34,176 nt of DNA, taken from contig PTLN01000006.1 in the NCBI GenBank assembly GCA_002938125.1, positions 1 to 34,176 on the forward strand. The letters run 5' to 3'. Source of the DNA: Alphaproteobacteria bacterium MarineAlpha2_Bin1. GTDB lineage: Bacteria; Pseudomonadota; Alphaproteobacteria; SHVP01. Every line of letters starts with the position of its first letter. Positions within the stretch are counted from its first letter, which is position 1. The notes beneath the pieces were generated by a model. The model saw only the letters and a list, made by a program, of their open reading frames with translations. It ran no database searches and was not told the origin of the DNA. Below are positions 9,204-20,223 of the stretch, piece after piece. Both the position numbers and the translations under genes were made by a program.

Positions 9204-10862
9204 TTATACAGAGGGAATATTTATATTTGTTGCTTTTTCAATAACGCAAATTGATAACGGCTCTTTTCTTCCCTTGATGTTAACTTCTTTTGATATGAAA
9301 TTTTTTAGTTCTAATTCGGCAATATCTAAAACTTTTTTACTTACGAGTAGTTCTGATTGAAAGTCTTTATTCAAACTTTCTAAACGACTAGCGGTATTTA
9401 CCGAATCACCAATTGCTGTAATAGACTTAGATTGAGCATAACCCATATCTCCCAAAATGACTTTTCCAATATGAATACCAATCCCAATTTTAATTGGTCT
9501 GTCAAGATCTTCTTTAAGGTGAAAGTTTAGATCTTCAATTCCTTCAGACATAAATCTTGCTGCTCTTAAAGCTGACAGACAAGCTTCTTTTGGTGTTTTT
9601 TGAATACCAAATAAAGCCATAACTCCATCCCCTATAAATTTATCTATTTTGCCACCTGAAATTTCCACAGCTTTACCCATAGTTTTAAAATATTGATTTA
9701 AAACAAACACTACATCATAAGGAAGCTTCTTTTCAGCTATAGAAGTGAAAGCTCGAATATCCGCAAAAAGTATGGCAATTTCTTGTTCTGCTCCATCATA
9801 ATATGAGGGTAAATTTCTTGAAGATTTTATTGATGAGTCAGGAGGTAATAAAGGAGTTACAGTTAAATCATGCGTAGGCGTTATTTGACAAGCTAGCCTT
9901 GTATTAAAATTTAAGCCCACTCTTTCAAGAACCTTTTTTTCTTCGTAAGAGGGTTCTTCTAAAAATTCTTTTCCATAAGTTACTCTTACTCTACATGTTG
10001 AACACCTTCCTTTTCCACCGCAAACTGAAGCATGAGGTTTTCCAGCAATTCTGCTTGCTTCGAGAACAGTAGTTCCTTTTTCAACAGAGACTATTGTTCC
10101 ATCTGGATAACTAATTTTTATTAATTTATACCTTTTTCTATTTACCCATTTAATTATTCTGAAAATAAATACTGTTACAATTAAAATTAAATAAACTATC
10201 AAAGCGATAAAAATATATTTTAAAACTGTATCAACCATTTCATGAGATAATTTAGGAGGCACATAATACCCCTCCTCATATAGTTTTTTTATTTCCCTTC
10301 CACCACTAACAAAACCTAAAAAAGCAGTTACTGGTAAAATTACTACTAAGGCATAAAGGTAAGATATTTTTCTTTGAAACCAACCCTTAAATCTAAGCCA
10401 AAAATATAAACCGATAGTTCCATGGACCCATACCAGAACAATTAATATAGAATTCATTACACCAAACTGAATTTGATCTACCCACAGCGTATATAATTCA
10501 TTTTGATATGTATCATCAAAATTAAATAACTCATGAGCCCCTCTAGTTCCCATTACATGCAAAATTAAACCAAATGGAAAAATTAGAGCAAAAATTGTTT
10601 GAGTAGATTCACCAAAGGACATTCTCAAAGTTTTTCTATTTGCTAATGTAATTAATACTAGAGATAAGTGGGCGAAGAATGATGAGTATAAAAGAAAAGT
10701 TCCAAATGGATTTCTCCAAATAAGAACAAATACAGCTCTTCCCCTCTCCATTGCATCTATAGAAATTAAACCCAAAGAATGATTTAGGAGATGCATACAT
10801 ACAAATGTATAAACAACTACTCCAGACCAAAGTCTAATCTTAGAGTAAAAACCAGCTTTCAT
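9204..10862 (-). CDS. Membrane class III adenylate cyclase with cytochrome-b-like anchor and 2Fe-2S ferredoxin domain
   Basis: 552 residues in three parts. Residues 1-240: about six hydrophobic segments resembling a fumarate reductase/succinate dehydrogenase cytochrome b anchor, with in-membrane histidines (H24, H28, H65, H102, H110, H147) that could ligate haem. Residues 245-340: plant-type ferredoxin domain with C281, C287, C290 and C325 in the C-x5-C-x2-C-x34-C spacing. Residues 358-545: class III cyclase with metal aspartates D368 (FADIRAFTS) and D412 (FIGDGVMALFG), adenine-selecting K408 and D486, and N489/R493 in GDSVNTASRLE. All catalytic positions look intact, so I predict cAMP synthesis tuned by redox state; the control is inference. 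It is two bases downstream of the adenosine kinase gene. Confidence 0.92.
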   Translation of the reverse strand: MKAGFYSKIRLWSGVVVYTFVCMHLLNHSLGLISIDAMERGRAVFVLIWRNPFGTFLLYSSFFAHLSLVLITLANRKTLRMSFGESTQTIFALIFPFGLILHVMGTRGAHELFNFDDTYQNELYTLWVDQIQFGVMNSILIVLVWVHGTIGLYFWLRFKGWFQRKISYLYALVVILPVTAFLGFVSGGREIKKLYEEGYYVPPKLSHEMVDTVLKYIFIALIVYLILIVTVFIFRIIKWVNRKRYKLIKISYPDGTIVSVEKGTTVLEASRIAGKPHASVCGGKGRCSTCRVRVTYGKEFLEEPSYEEKKVLERVGLNFNTRLACQITPTHDLTVTPLLPPDSSIKSSRNLPSYYDGAEQEIAILFADIRAFTSIAEKKLPYDVVFVLNQYFKTMGKAVEISGGKIDKFIGDGVMALFGIQKTPKEACLSALRAARFMSEGIEDLNFHLKEDLDRPIKIGIGIHIGKVILGDMGYAQSKSITAIGDSVNTASRLESLNKDFQSELLVSKKVLDIAELELKNFISKEVNIKGRKEPLSICVIEKATNINIPSV

Positions 10863-13183: not shown

Positions 13184-13666
13184 ATGACTAAAAGTAATAT
13201 TTATAATAATGCCATTTTAAACATAGTTCTTAATCCTAACAGGTCATTAACAAAATCAACCTTTTATTTAATTATTATTTTGTTATTAATTATTAGTATG
13301 TCTGTAGGAATTTTTTTTTACTCTATAGGGGCATGGCCAGTAATAGGTTTCTTTGGTTTAGATGTAACAGTTTTTGCATTAATTTTTTATTTTCATAATA
13401 AGTCATTAAAAATCTCTGAAAGAATAATACTTACAAAGAACGAAATGATAATTGAAAAGGTTAAACCATTTAGAAAAAATTTAACTGTAAAATTCTCTCC
13501 ACCAAATTGGATAAATATTACTCTAAAAAAATCTATCTATAACAAGACAAGGTTAATTATACATTCTCACGGTTCAGCAATATTTGTTGGTGATTTTTTA
13601 ACGAAAGTTGAAAAAATTAAACTAGCAAATTCTCTCAGAGACGAAATAAATAAATTTAAAATTTAA
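13184..13666 (+). CDS. DUF2244 membrane protein
   Basis: 160 residues from ATG 13184; an in-frame GTG at 13175 has no better ribosome site. It fits DUF2244: an N-terminal LNPNRSLTKSTF segment (family 'l.PhrSLs'), two membrane helices joined by the GAWPVIGFFGLD signature (about 52-63), then a soluble beta-rich part with SPPNWINITLKK and VGDFLTKVEKIKLA. No biochemical role is established. In other alphaproteobacteria DUF2244 genes sit near cytochrome oxidase or nth/dapB genes; here it is convergent with dapB, overlapping by four bases. Confidence 0.85.
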   Translation: MTKSNIYNNAILNIVLNPNRSLTKSTFYLIIILLLIISMSVGIFFYSIGAWPVIGFFGLDVTVFALIFYFHNKSLKISERIILTKNEMIIEKVKPFRKNLTVKFSPPNWINITLKKSIYNKTRLIIHSHGSAIFVGDFLTKVEKIKLANSLRDEINKFKI

Positions 13667-14478
13667 ATCTCTAAATTTAAAACATCTCTCATAGAATATA
13701 GACCACTATTTTTTTTCGAAAGCCAAATTGCTGCCTTTATTGCTCCGGCTGCGAAAAGGCTTCTATTTTCTGCCTTATGCTTAAGTTCAATAATCTCATG
13801 GTCACTTGCAAATAAAACAGAGTGTTCCCCGGTTACACTTCCTCCTCTAAGTGAAGCAAATCCAATATTTCCAACCTTTCTCTTCGAATTTATCCCATCA
13901 CGACTAACTTCAAAATTATTTAATAAATCAATTTTTCTTCCTATAGCAGCAGCTTTTCCTAATGCTAGAGCTGTTCCAGAAGGTGCATCGACTTTATGTT
14001 TATGATGCATTTCAAAAACCTCAATATCAAACTCTTCCTTACTTAATGTGCCAGATAATTTTTTCACCAATTCAATAAGAATATTAATACCAATACTCAT
14101 ATTTGCAGAATAAACAATTGGCACATATTGTGCAGCTATTTCTATATCTCTTTCAATCTCTTTATTGAGTCCAGTTGTACCTATTACAAGGCCTTTTGCA
14201 TACTTTTTTGCAAATTTAATATTTTCAAATGTTGAATCAGGAGTGCTAAAATCGATTATAATATCACAACATTCAAAAAATTTTTTCCTATTTGAAGTAG
14301 CAACAGCACTTATATTTTCTGAATTAATCAATTTCCCTAAATTTTTACCTACATCTGGATTGTTTTCAGCTTCCAAGCCACTAGCAATATTACAATCATT
14401 ATGGTCTGAAACGAGTTTAATTAGTGTTTTACCCATTTTGCCCGAACAACCAGAGACACCAATATTCAATAGAGACAT
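13663..14478 (-). CDS. dapB: 4-hydroxy-tetrahydrodipicolinate reductase
   Basis: 271 residues. NAD(P)H reduction of hydroxy-tetrahydrodipicolinate on the way to meso-diaminopimelate and lysine. Nucleotide-binding loop VSGCSGKMGK (8-17), IIDFSTP (74-80), GTTG (100-103). Catalytic HHKHKVDAPSGTA has His158 and Lys162, matching E. coli His159 and Lys163. The length is standard. In many alphaproteobacteria dapB sits directly downstream of dnaJ; here two methyltransferase genes separate them. Confidence 0.97.
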   Translation of the reverse strand: MSLLNIGVSGCSGKMGKTLIKLVSDHNDCNIASGLEAENNPDVGKNLGKLINSENISAVATSNRKKFFECCDIIIDFSTPDSTFENIKFAKKYAKGLVIGTTGLNKEIERDIEIAAQYVPIVYSANMSIGINILIELVKKLSGTLSKEEFDIEVFEMHHKHKVDAPSGTALALGKAAAIGRKIDLLNNFEVSRDGINSKRKVGNIGFASLRGGSVTGEHSVLFASDHEIIELKHKAENRSLFAAGAIKAAIWLSKKNSGLYSMRDVLNLEI

Positions 14479-14626: not shown

Positions 14627-15811
14627 ATGGCCTCAACTGATATTGCTACTCAAAAAACTTCCATAAGAGGGCTCGGAAAACACGCAATTATGCCTGAATT
14701 AAGGTCTGATGACGAATACTTACTTAATTATCAAATGGCACTATCTAAGTTTTTAAGAGAAAAAATACAATCCGAAAACATTAATATATATAGAAAAAAA
14801 GTAGAACCGGTTTTCAAAAAAAAATACGGACGACTTCCAAAATCACGCCACGAGATTAGAAAAGAAATGCTTAAGCAACCAGCATATCAATGGTGGGCAT
14901 GTCTTAGGCGCCATTTACAAGAGCAAAGCTCGTCATTTAAATTTCCTATTGTCGAGAGACAAGCTGATAATTTATCAGCGATAGCAAAAAAATATCGTAA
15001 AAAAAAGGATTTTGGCTCTCTGAAGCTAAATAACAAAATAAAATATCCAAAATATCAAACTGCAATGGATATGCACTGGATGCCTGGAAGTTATTATACT
15101 GAAGTAACTGATTATGACGTTTTTTCAGGGGCAATGTATGACCTAGGAGGGTTATATATTGGTACAGGAGGAAAGATGGGCCCATATAATGATGGACCTG
15201 GGTGGGCTGCAATAAATTGGCTAAATAATAACTATCCTAAGTTCTATCCAAAAAAAGTTCTTGATCAAGGATGTACAGTTGGTCACTCAACGTTAGCCTA
15301 TGCTGCTGCTTGGCCCAAATCTAGTATAACAGGCATTGATTTTGCTGCACCAGTATTACGTTATGGTCACGCAAGAGCTCAATCTCTAAATAAAAAGATA
15401 AATTTTGTTCAGTCCTTAGCTGAAAAGACTAAATTTAAAAATAATACTTTTGATTTAGTTGTTTCATCAATGTTCCTTCATGAGACTTCCACGAGGGCTA
15501 TAAAAGATTTATTTACTGAAACATATAGAATATTAAAACCAGGAGGTCTTATGCTTCATGTAGAACAACCTCCATTTCATTTAATGAAAACTGTTTTTGA
15601 ACAATTTGAGATGGATTGGGATACTCACAATAATAATGAACCATTTTGGGGTCCTATGCATGATTTAGATTTAATAAAGATTTCTTCAGAATCAGGTTTC
15701 AAAAAATCAAAAACTTTTGAAAAGTTCTGTCCTTTTGTTATTCCACAAGAAGACAATTCTATTAAAGAAGCTAAAGCTGGTAATTGGTTTTTATTTGGAT
15801 CGTGGAAATAG
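14627..15811 (+). CDS. SAM-dependent methyltransferase with conserved N-terminal extension (paralogue 1)
   Basis: 394 residues. A class I (UbiE-like) methyltransferase core occupies about 205-350: motif I VLDQGCTVGHST (211-222), ITGIDFAAPVLRYG, SSMFLHET, and LKPGGLMLHVEQPP. Upstream is a ~200-residue extension: SIRGLGKHAI near the start, a basic patch YGRLPKSRHEIRKEM (67-81), and the block DMHWMPGSYYTE to LYIGTGGKMGPYNDG-GWA (about 148-194). The convergent neighbour shares all of these, so they form a family of their own that I cannot name. The substrate is unknown. It has AGGA ten bases before the ATG. It ends seven bases from the convergent paralogue. Confidence 0.8.
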   Translation: MASTDIATQKTSIRGLGKHAIMPELRSDDEYLLNYQMALSKFLREKIQSENINIYRKKVEPVFKKKYGRLPKSRHEIRKEMLKQPAYQWWACLRRHLQEQSSSFKFPIVERQADNLSAIAKKYRKKKDFGSLKLNNKIKYPKYQTAMDMHWMPGSYYTEVTDYDVFSGAMYDLGGLYIGTGGKMGPYNDGPGWAAINWLNNNYPKFYPKKVLDQGCTVGHSTLAYAAAWPKSSITGIDFAAPVLRYGHARAQSLNKKINFVQSLAEKTKFKNNTFDLVVSSMFLHETSTRAIKDLFTETYRILKPGGLMLHVEQPPFHLMKTVFEQFEMDWDTHNNNEPFWGPMHDLDLIKISSESGFKKSKTFEKFCPFVIPQEDNSIKEAKAGNWFLFGSWK

Positions 15812-15818
15812 TTTTTAT

Positions 15819-16994
15819 CTAATTTTTGATAGAACTAAATATAAACCAATAGCCGCCACCAAAATTTTCTAATTTCCCTTTAATATATGATGCACCTGGT
15901 GCAATTTTTTGAACTATGTTTTGTCTTTTAAATCCAGAATTTTCAGCCCATCTAATTAAGTTCATATCTCTAAATGCACATCGCATAGGCTCATTATTAT
16001 ACCAAGTATCCCACTCTCTAAAAAATTGTTCAGCAGGTTTTACCCCATGATATTGAGGTTGCTCGTTATGTAACATAATTCCATTTGGTTTTAGTAGTCT
16101 AAATATTTCTTTACCAATATTTTTTATATTTTTTTGAGGAATTTCATGCATAAACATTGATGAAGTTATGAGGTCAAAAGTTTTTGATTTAAAACCAGTT
16201 TCCTCAGCATTTTTTTGGTAGTAGTTTATAGCTGTATTCAAATAATTAGATCTACTAAATGCATATCTTAAAAGAGGTGCACAAGCATCTATTGCATATA
16301 TTTCTGAATTTGGCCAATATGTTTTTAAAGGAAGAGTTGAGTGTCCAATTGTGCAACCAAGATCTAAAATTTTTTTAGGATTAAAGTTAGGAAAATTTTT
16401 TTTTATAAAAGCAATATTAGCCCACCCTGCACCATCACTGTATTTACCTAATTCCCCTCCTGTTGCTAAATATAGACTTGCAGTATCATAATTTGAACCA
16501 GCATAAATCCCTTCTCCATCATCAGAGTTATAGCCGTGTGGCATACAATGAATATCTATTTTTGTTATATAATTAGGTATCTGAAGTTTTGAGTCCAAAT
16601 AAATATTCCCCAGTTTTTTTTTCTGATTTGTATATTTCTCGTTGATATTCATCTCTTCTCTATTAATTATATCGCCGCGATTATAATAGCTCATTTCCTG
16701 ATTGTTTCTTTTTAGTGAGCTCCAGATTTTCCAAAGGAAATCTTTCATCATAAAACTTCTTACTTCTTTACGATTTTTGGGTAATCGTTTATAGGTTTTA
16801 AAAAATTTAGGTTGCTGTTTATATCTCCAACTAGATTTAGCAGCTGGAAGTATTTTTTGTGATACAAAAAAATTGGAAGTCATTTGGAAGTCTAAACGGG
16901 ACACGTCATCGTGTAATAGATTTGGAGAAAGACCATGTCTTCCCTCATGCCTTATTGATGGAGGTTGCTCTCTATTTATTCTCTCAGGATGCAA
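15819..16994 (-). CDS. SAM-dependent methyltransferase with conserved N-terminal extension (paralogue 2)
   Basis: 391 residues from a TTG at 16994 with AAGG eight bases upstream. Same architecture as the convergent gene: SIRHEGRHGL near the start, YKRLPKNRKEVRSFM (68-82), the mid-block from IDIHCMPHGYNSDD to LYLATGGELGKYSDGAGWA, then motif I ILDLGCTIGHST (209-220), YAIDACAPLLRYA, SSMFMHEI and LKPNGIMLHNEQP. It lies 36 bases downstream of dnaJ in the same direction, where dapB would often be, so it may be read from the dnaK-dnaJ transcript. The two copies are clearly homologous but well diverged, so the duplication is old. Substrate unknown. Confidence 0.8.
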   Translation of the reverse strand: MHPERINREQPPSIRHEGRHGLSPNLLHDDVSRLDFQMTSNFFVSQKILPAAKSSWRYKQQPKFFKTYKRLPKNRKEVRSFMMKDFLWKIWSSLKRNNQEMSYYNRGDIINREEMNINEKYTNQKKKLGNIYLDSKLQIPNYITKIDIHCMPHGYNSDDGEGIYAGSNYDTASLYLATGGELGKYSDGAGWANIAFIKKNFPNFNPKKILDLGCTIGHSTLPLKTYWPNSEIYAIDACAPLLRYAFSRSNYLNTAINYYQKNAEETGFKSKTFDLITSSMFMHEIPQKNIKNIGKEIFRLLKPNGIMLHNEQPQYHGVKPAEQFFREWDTWYNNEPMRCAFRDMNLIRWAENSGFKRQNIVQKIAPGASYIKGKLENFGGGYWFIFSSIKN

Positions 16995-17030: not shown

Positions 17031-18164
17031 TCAGTCTTTTAATTCATCCCACAATTCTTTTGCTTTAGAAAAAAACCCTTCTGATTGAGGGTTTTGTGAA
17101 GATCCTTTTCCCTCATTTTCAAATTCTTTTAAAAGATCTTTTTGCTTTTTACTTAAATTAACAGGGGTTTCAACATGTGTTTCTATATGTAAGTCACCAC
17201 CCAAATTATGACCCTTTAGAGCAGGCATACCCTTCCCTCTTAGCCTAAACTGTTTTCCTGACTGAGTGCCAGCAGGTATGCTTATTTTACCCCTTTTACC
17301 TTCCAATGTAGGAACCTCTACATTTCCACCTAATGCAGCGGTAGTAATCGAAATTGGGACTTTACAAAATAAATGAGGACCTTCTCTTTGAAATAAATTA
17401 TGTTGTTTAACAGAAACAAAAATATACAGATCTCCAGGTGGCCCACCTCTCATACCTGCCTCTCCCTCACCGGAAAGTCTAATTCTAACTCCGCTTTCAA
17501 TTCCTGCTGGTATACTGACCGAAAGAGCTTTATCTTTTCTCAATCTACCATTACCAGAACATTTTTTGCATGGGTTAGTAATTTGATATCCGGCCCCTTG
17601 GCACTGTGGACATGTTCTTTCAATTGTAAAGAAACCTTGTTGAGCCCTTACTTTTCCAGCTCCATTACACATTCGACACGCTTGAGGAGAGCTTTTTCCC
17701 TCGGAACCTGTCCCATTACAGCTTGAGCAACCAACAGATGTTGGAATTTTAATGGTGGCTTTTTTTCCCTTATAAGCCTCTTCAAGTGTTACCTCCATAT
17801 TATATCTTAGATCTGCTCCTCTGCCAGAAGACTGTTGGCCACCTCCCATAAAATCTCCAAAAATATCTCCAAAAATATCTGAAAATGATGAGGCAAAATC
17901 AAAAGCTGAATTACCTCCAGGGCTTTGTCCCATACCCTGTTCAAATGCAGCGTGACCATAACGATCATATGCTGACCTTTTATTTTCGTCTCTCAAAACA
18001 TCATATGCTTCTGAAAGTTCTTTGAATTTAGCCTCAGCTGATGGATTATTTGGGTTTTTATCGGGATGATATTGCATTGCCTTTTTTCTATAGGCTTTTT
18101 TAATCTCAGCATCAGAGCTGTCCCGGCTAACTCCAAGCAATTCATAATAATCGCTTTTAGACAT
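17031..18164 (-). CDS. dnaJ: Chaperone DnaJ (Hsp40)
   Basis: 377 residues. Type I J-protein that delivers unfolded clients to DnaK and stimulates its ATPase. J domain with HPD at 33-35; a Gly/Phe-rich region (about 75-115) with the repeat Asp-Ile-Phe-Gly-Asp; four zinc-binding repeats [24 protein letters not shown] and CKKCSGNG; C-terminal beta domains with [11 protein letters not shown] and GGDLHIE. Everything needed for function is present. It lies 65 bases downstream of dnaK in the same direction, and GGA about ten bases before the ATG serves as ribosome site. Confidence 0.98.
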
Positions 18165-18229: not shown

Positions 18230-20167
18230 TTAATCTTTTTTATCATCATCTACTTCTTCAAAATCAGCATCGACTACATCTTCGTTTTCATTTGATGAAT
18301 CGCTAGAACTTGTCTCATCAAAATTCTGACCAGAACCGGGCTGTGATCCTGAATTTTGTTCAGCTTGTGCTTTATAGATAGCTTCACCCAATTTCATTGA
18401 AGCTTGAACTAAGGCTTCCGTTTTATTTTTAATTTCATCAAGATTATCAGATTCTTTTGCAACTTTGAGTTCTTCGATAGCAACTTCTATAGCACTTTTT
18501 TCTTCTTCAGAAATTTTATCGCCATGTTCCTTTAGATTTTGTTCAGTACTGTGAAGCAGACCTTCAGCCTGGTTTTTCGCTTCAACTTTTTCTTTTTTAG
18601 CTTCATCTTCACTTTTATTAGCTTCTGCATCTTTAACCATTTTTTCTATTTCATCATCGCTCAAGCCACCAGAAGCTTGGATTTTAATTTGTTGCTCTTT
18701 ACCTGTACCTTTATCTTTTGCAGAAACATTAACAATACCGTTGGCGTCTATATCAAAAGTAACTTCAATTTGAGGCATTCCTCTTGGAGCTGGAGGTATT
18801 CCAATTAGATCAAACTGACCAAGAATTTTGTTATCAGCAGCCATTTCTCTTTCACCTTGATGAACTCTAATAGTTACTGCAGATTGATTATCGTCAGCTG
18901 TAGAAAAAACTTGTGATTTTCTTGTAGGAATTGTTGTATTCCTCTCTATAAGTCTAGTAAAAACTCCACCTAATGTTTCTATTCCAAGTGACAATGGTGT
19001 AACATCTAAAAGTAATACGTCCTTGACATCACCCTGTAAAACCCCTGCTTGGATAGCTGCTCCCATAGCTACAACTTCATCCGGGTTTACACCTTTGTGG
19101 GGCTCTCTTCCAAAAAAATTTTTTACTCTCTCTACAACTTTGGGCATACGAGTCATTCCACCAACTAATACGACTTCATCAACTTCACCAGCTGTTAGGC
19201 CAGCATCTTTAAGAGCTTTCTCACATGGAATTATTGTACGATTTATTAAATCTTCTACTAAAGCTTCAAGTTTAGCTCTTGTTAATTTCATAGTTAAATG
19301 TTTAGGACCTGTTTTGTCAGCTGTTATGAATGGAAGGTTTATTTCTGTTTGCATAGAACTTGATAATTCAATTTTAGCTTTTTCAGCAGATTCTTTTAGT
19401 CTTTGCAATGCAAGTTTATCTTTTCTAAGGTCAATCCCATTTTCTTTTTTAAATTCATTTGCTAAATAATTAAGAAGGGAAATGTCAAAATCTTCTCCAC
19501 CTAGAAAAGTATCTCCATTTGTGGACTTAACTTCAAATACACCGTCACCAATCTCTAGAACTGATACATCAAATGTTCCACCTCCTAAATCATACACTGC
19601 AATGGTTTTTCCGTCTTTTTTATCAAGACCATATGCTAGCGAAGCAGCAGTTGGTTCATTGATTATTCTTAAAACTTCAAGTCCTGCGATTTTACCTGCA
19701 TCTTTTGTTGCTTGTCTTTGTGCATCATTGAAATAAGCAGGTACCGTAATTACAGCTTTTTCTACCGGTTCACCCAAGTAGCTCTCAGCGGTTTCTTTCA
19801 TTTTTTGGAGTATAAAGGCTGAAATCTGGCTTGGTGAATATTTTTCACCTCTTGCCTCGACCCAAGCATCTCCGCTATCTGACTTAATTATTGAATATGG
19901 AACCATATCAATATCTTTTTTTGTCATAGGGTCGTCGAATGTCCTTCCAATTAGCCGTTTGATTGCAAAAAGTGTTGCTTCCGGATTTGTAACGGCTTGC
20001 CTCTTTGCGCTCTGACCTACAAGTTTCTCTTTGTCTTCTGAGAATGCAACCATAGAAGGAGTTGTTCTCCCACCTTCGGTATTTTCAATTACTTTTGGCT
20101 CATTCCCTTCCATAACAGCGACACAGGAATTTGTTGTTCCCAAGTCTATACCTATAACCCTACTCAT
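18230..20167 (-). CDS. dnaK: Chaperone DnaK (Hsp70)
   Basis: 645 residues from the ATG at 20167, chosen because family members start [14 protein letters not shown] and AGGAGA lies seven bases upstream (20175-20180). ATP-driven chaperone of the cytoplasm, working with DnaJ and GrpE, both in this window. Phosphate loop [21 protein letters not shown], the adenosine motif [12 protein letters not shown], the interdomain linker [13 protein letters not shown], the substrate-binding beta domain and a helical lid are all present. The acidic tail has the form [12 protein letters not shown]. Codon and base use look richer in G+C than in neighbouring genes, as expected for a highly expressed gene. Confidence 0.99.
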
Positions 20168-20223
20168 AATGATATCTCCTGTATCCCAAAATTGATGCTT
20201 CATGAATAAAGCACTGTTACTGT

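Follow-up and report, generated by a model that had tools for sequence, protein, structure and literature searches.

A putative class I methyltransferase family with its own N-terminal extension and a linked helical protein, multiplied in an aquatic alphaproteobacterial lineage

Class I methyltransferases of the Methyltransf_25 and Methyltransf_11 type are built on a common core domain and fold, with a GxGxxG-type motif I and an acidic residue after strand 2. Among the described enzymes nearest to the proteins considered here are the plant and Plasmodium phosphoethanolamine N-methyltransferases (PMT), the plant members of which possess an ILH motif after core strand 5, whose histidine is catalytic. 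In several O- and N-methyltransferases a histidine at the equivalent position acts as the base. A two-domain design, with a helical domain preceding the core, is found in O-methyltransferases such as 2r3s, DnrK, RedM and DsyB.

We analyzed a window of 34,176 nucleotides from Alphaproteobacteria bacterium MarineAlpha2_Bin1, belonging to a draft genome of 1.87 Mb that is 84% complete. The original prediction described a convergent pair of diverged paralogous methyltransferases lying tail to tail between dapB and dnaJ, and the coordinates, lengths and gene order (dnaK-dnaJ-MT2 / MT1-dapB) were all found to be correct:

13663..14478, minus strand: dapB, flanking gene, name recognized from sequence
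14627..15811, plus strand: MT1, SAM-dependent methyltransferase of 394 aa, assigned from the open frame, the Methyltransf_25 match, orthologues and dN/dS
14627..15241, plus strand: N-terminal extension of MT1, residues 1-205, helical, with no Pfam match
15242..15808, plus strand: class I methyltransferase core of MT1, with motif I DQGCTVG (213-219), D238, H285-E286, W331 and E338
15812..15818, no strand: gap of 7 bases between the convergent MT1 and MT2
15819..16994, minus strand: MT2, SAM-dependent methyltransferase of 391 aa with a TTG start
16386..16994, minus strand: N-terminal extension of MT2, about residues 1-203
17031..18164, minus strand: dnaJ, flanking gene on the strand of MT2 and 36 bases upstream of it, name recognized from sequence
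18230..20203, minus strand: dnaK, flanking gene, name recognized from sequence

The sequence TAAGG occurs 8 bases upstream of the TTG start of MT2. Over the whole window AGGAGG is present 19 times against 9.2 expected in shuffled sequences, a count reached by 0 of 100 shuffles. Elsewhere in the window, positions 9204-10862 of the minus strand encode a 552-aa protein in which a membrane N-terminus, a 2Fe-2S ferredoxin-like domain and an adenylate/guanylate cyclase domain were recognized by eye.

MT1 and MT2 are 41% identical over 386 residues (E = 4e-104). Both contain every motif named in the original prediction, namely SIR..G at 12-17, RLPK.R.E.R..M at 69-81, D[MI]H.MP at 148-153 and TGG..G.Y.DG.GWA at 180-194. 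The RxPxxRxExRxxM and DxHxxPG parts occur family-wide, and the SIR opening and the GWA ending do not. The core, which begins at about residue 207, matched Methyltransf_25 in Pfam with E-values of 3.5e-19 for MT1 and 9.7e-17 for MT2, the two scoring 62-70 against a cut-off of 27. Judged by the Pfam scores, motif I and the acidic residue, both proteins have the Rossmann-like, predicted SAM-binding core of a class I SAM-dependent methyltransferase.

In the predicted structure of MT1, extension and core fold together with high confidence (pLDDT 94.8, pTM 0.93). A profile made from the extension alone recovers the family with E-values down to 1e-83, whereas the same ~200 residues gave nothing convincing in Pfam (best E 0.14). 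The whole MT1 and MT2 sequences returned only sub-threshold matches in NCBIfam, and PDB sequence and fold searches likewise yielded no name for the extension. An unnamed family with a conserved extension of its own, as had been proposed, is therefore upheld by the lack of a Pfam or NCBIfam match, the confident fold and the specificity of the extension profile. No publication about the methyltransferase family, the small protein C1 described below or plasmid pJE1 came up in literature searches, and the one on strain TomTYG65 makes no mention of the methyltransferase and C1 genes. Phage records gave no match, leaving a phage origin unsupported.

Alignment of about 152 sequences showed P141, H150, G215, G219, D276, H285, E286, R301, G307, N336, E338 and G357 to be invariant; W331 is changed in a single sequence and D238 is nearly invariant. 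Orthologues of MT1 share 90% and 87% identity with it within the genus and 56-60% in other genera, the corresponding values for MT2 being 87% and 81%, and 47-51%. The dN/dS ratios between congeneric genomes were 0.06-0.07 for MT1 and 0.07-0.14 for MT2, so both genes are under strong purifying selection. These low ratios, together with the intact motifs in both proteins, reject decay of one copy and confirm the earlier expectation that both are maintained. In a tree of 153 sequences, whose deep joins are unsure because the search was quick and short and some branches are long, MT1 with its orthologues and MT2 with its orthologues each formed a clade with top support. The nearest relatives of the MT1 clade were 20 other copies of the lineage, and not MT2. 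MT1 and MT2 are probably old members of the family, each conserved separately.

Counts from sequence searches of genomes revealed that the pair is part of a larger set. The window genome encodes 13 family members spanning extension and core, of which one is truncated at the end of a contig. In genomes of the same genus and family there were from 9 to over 30 matches, a count that takes in weaker methyltransferase matches, while the extension-only profile returned 15 in G002, 39 in G008 and 40 in G005. The special standing given to the pair in the original prediction could therefore not be maintained, as MT1 and MT2 are two of 13 copies and not sisters in the tree. At locus L060 (G004:C1:70665-75532) four family members stand in direct tandem, which shows that the family grew in part by local duplication. 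Beyond the lineage the family is sparse: the extension was detected in 5 of 397 Pseudomonadota genomes, the window genome included, and in 5 of 247 genomes of G143's family. Matching public records include those of marine and lake MAGs, Stenotrophomonas, Alteromonas, Novosphingobium, Kordiimonas and Candidatus Binatia. A family found in about 1% of the sampled Pseudomonadota genomes and yet represented by 13-40 genes in small aquatic genomes points to a substantial, unstudied activity, perhaps aimed at dissolved organic matter.

When the neighbouring genes at the loci fetched first were clustered, a conserved helical protein of ~115 aa, here called C1, stood out as lying beside the methyltransferase in many taxa. 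Profile scoring placed C1 next to the methyltransferase gene and on the same strand in 53 of 53 assessable cases outside the lineage, which do not amount to 53 independent events because the loci were retrieved through their resemblance to MT1 and some belong to related strains. Two genome draws provided an independent test of this tie. The extension and C1 occurred in the identical 5 of the 397 Pseudomonadota genomes and, barring one weak match of 44 residues, in the identical 5 of the 247 genomes of G143's family; C1 was also present in all 15 other methyltransferase-bearing genomes. Inside the lineage an adjacent C1 accompanies 11 of 99 sampled copies, the remaining 88, MT1 and MT2 among them, having none. 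When both groups are pooled, C1 lies downstream of the methyltransferase in 59 of 64 adjacent cases. The window genome has four copies of C1, three of them next to methyltransferases of the family and the fourth at the end of a contig, and across the lineage there are 4-7 copies of C1 as against 13-40 methyltransferases. Adjacency in all assessable cases outside the lineage and co-occurrence in the same genomes indicate that the ancestral unit was probably a two-gene enzyme module of methyltransferase and C1.

The structure of C1 was predicted as helical with moderate confidence (pLDDT 76.9), and its conserved parts include a K/R-rich N-terminus (KAKGKRP) and a long helix with E39, V42, R46 and E51. 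No match to C1 was obtained in Pfam or NCBIfam, nor among solved folds at E < 0.001. A search for sites kept solely in C1-linked methyltransferases gave no sharp interface, since the linked copies are more conserved throughout. At locus L159 (G008:C5) the order is methyltransferase, C1, methyltransferase, as expected if two catalytic genes share one C1.

Genes recurring beside family members encode SDR enzymes (36 loci), PuuE-like deacetylases (21), acyl-CoA dehydrogenases (13), hydantoinase A (12) and B (13), CaiB (11), MmgE/PrpD (9) and HapK (7), followed by DUF1838, a nitrilase-like hydrolase, OYE-like enzymes, TonB and ABC or TRAP uptake genes. These neighbourhoods point to catabolism of organic compounds, as far as raw counts that include related strains, and several gene names read from sequence alone, can suggest. 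On plasmid pJE1 of Sphingomonas sp. JE1 the methyltransferase gene and C1, annotated as hypothetical, overlap by one base within a run comprising a TonB receptor, a GntR regulator, ADH, MmgE/PrpD, SDR, HapK, FAD oxidoreductases, hydantoinase A/B and a semialdehyde dehydrogenase; a related cluster on pTomTYG65b is truncated where the record stops. MT1 and MT2 themselves lie among housekeeping genes with no C1 beside them. At three loci (L038, L047 and L066) a paralogue is flanked on one side by genes for IPMD-like large and small subunits and for a PEP-mutase/methylisocitrate-lyase-like enzyme, and on the other by PuuE-like and isochorismatase genes, an arrangement possibly belonging to a branched dicarboxylate or cyclic imide pathway. 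Breakdown of a cyclic imide or of a tetrapyrrole-derived maleimide was considered as a candidate pathway, an idea suggested by the PuuE-like, isochorismatase, Amdase/EutA-like, IPMD-like and PEP-mutase neighbours.

The original prediction also held that the pair is retained together and may act as a heterodimer, and that MT2 may be co-transcribed under heat shock. Joint retention was borne out in part: MT1 and MT2 are directly convergent in the three genomes of g1 and convergent with a small gene between them in the three of g4, where an SDR gene adjoins MT1, but in G006 (g5) about 5 kb with OYE-like and ABC-binding-protein genes lies between the two, which still face each other, and their orthologues occupy different contigs in G004. 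A CBS-domain-like gene of 154-166 aa lies between MT1 and MT2 at L141, L057 and L058 (G008, G005 and G009), and none is present in the window. An obligate MT1-MT2 heterodimer serving a single composite function would agree with this largely preserved facing arrangement, and is nevertheless very improbable, as each protein retains the full set of invariant residues, the two belong to different clades with MT1 closer to other copies of its genome, the G004 orthologues are apart and convergent genes are not co-transcribed; no evidence for the heterodimer emerged, and the family's travelling partner is C1. As for heat shock, MT2 shares the strand of dnaJ, no terminator-like site was found on that strand in the 36-base gap, and the same neighbourhood recurs in g4, so that read-through from dnaJ into MT2 is possible. 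A role in methylating proteins or RNA as part of a dnaK-dnaJ operon is doubtful, because the dnaJ link is limited to g1 and g4. In G006 dnaJ was not found beside MT1 or MT2, in G004 the MT2 orthologue is on another contig than MT1, paralogues reside in unrelated catabolic neighbourhoods and promoter-like sites are no commoner than chance, all of which makes this role distinctly improbable. dapB is near MT1 also in G004 and G006 (both with GST and SDR between), G009 (with SDR between) and G008. In G004, MT1 is one of four family members in a tandem array; dapB, GST and SDR come before this array, and ABC-binding-protein and OYE-like genes after it. From the surroundings of MT1 in g4, G006 and G004 its older setting looks catabolic, the dnaJ neighbour being particular to g1 and g4.

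Two further explanations concern what the enzymes do. Strict co-occurrence and adjacency, and the conserved K/R-rich N-terminus of C1, would suit a family of dedicated protein methyltransferases acting on C1 at its basic stretch KAKGKRP. The excess of methyltransferases over C1 in the lineage, neighbourhoods that vary among copies as though the substrates vary, and conservation extending into the long helix of C1 make this rather unlikely. Alternatively, the fold may be intact while the enzyme performs other SAM-assisted chemistry, such as that of a lyase or hydrolase, in ring-opening catabolism. It is not obvious where methyl transfer would fit into the catabolic clusters, and the invariant H150 and H285-E286 could bind a metal; yet the SAM motifs are complete in all copies and the nearest PDB matches are ordinary methyltransferases, so we regard such chemistry as unlikely.

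The best reading is that the family consists of small-molecule SAM-dependent methyltransferases diversified by substrate. With a probability of roughly 60%, we propose that MT1 and MT2 are such enzymes, derived from an ancestral methyltransferase-C1 module whose methyltransferase multiplied while C1 remained in few copies. The class I core would bind SAM, and the family-specific helical N-terminal domain, which carries the invariant P141 and H150, most likely closes off the active site and determines the choice of substrate; as H150 lies in the extension, this domain is a probable contributor to the active site. H285, which follows core strand 5, most likely acts with E286 and E/D313 to position a hydroxyl or carboxyl group and remove its proton for methyl transfer, a base-assisted mechanism that we infer from one alignment, in which H285 falls on a histidine at a base position. 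C1 would have been the ~115-aa helical subunit of the ancestral two-gene module. In the window lineage the methyltransferase gene would have multiplied and spread into many catabolic neighbourhoods with C1 staying at a few copies, and the present numbers suggest that the majority of copies work either with no C1 or with one shared in trans. A more specific picture, tentative and on balance doubtful, is an undescribed two-component methyltransferase system, with C1 as its dedicated helical subunit, that takes part in degrading heterocycles or other complex organic molecules. In a planktonic alphaproteobacterial family the catalytic subunit would have expanded to ~40 paralogues sharing few C1 copies; if true, this would amount to a modular collection of methylating enzymes directed at dissolved organic matter.

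The tie to C1 is newly reported here. Of wider interest are the probable module of methyltransferase and C1 and the extent to which its catalytic half has expanded in one aquatic lineage. Current annotation conceals both under the labels "class I SAM-dependent methyltransferase" and "hypothetical protein". The strict tie to C1 offers a concrete handle on the family, and the plasmid-borne and Stenotrophomonas clusters provide culturable hosts for a substrate search.

Comparison with known systems confined the likeness to the core. PMT was the top PDB profile match (AtPMT2, 5wp5, E 6.5e-21), and H285 of MT1 aligns with the histidine of its ILH motif. The alignment covers a core of ~125 residues (profile positions 186-310 of 375), leaving the extension with no PMT counterpart, and the whole-model TM-score is below 0.45; since the core alone aligns, full-length similarity to PMT was rejected. 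2r3s, DnrK, RedM and DsyB were among the best Foldseek matches by E-value and have the two-domain design in common with the family, but query-normalized TM-scores of 0.37-0.41 imply that little beyond the core is shared. Assignment to the plant-type O-methyltransferases was discarded, PF00891 reaching 13.3 bits for MT1 against a cut-off of 22.3 and MT2 having no listed match. The BioC, UbiE and trans-aconitate methyltransferase models gave weak core matches and nothing in the extension, and were rejected at 21-56 bits against NCBIfam cut-offs of 158-378. The family thus resembles Methyltransf_25 and Methyltransf_11 enzymes in its core, and differs from them in its own ~200-residue N-terminal domain, in the universal H150, H285-E286 and E338, and in the linked C1.
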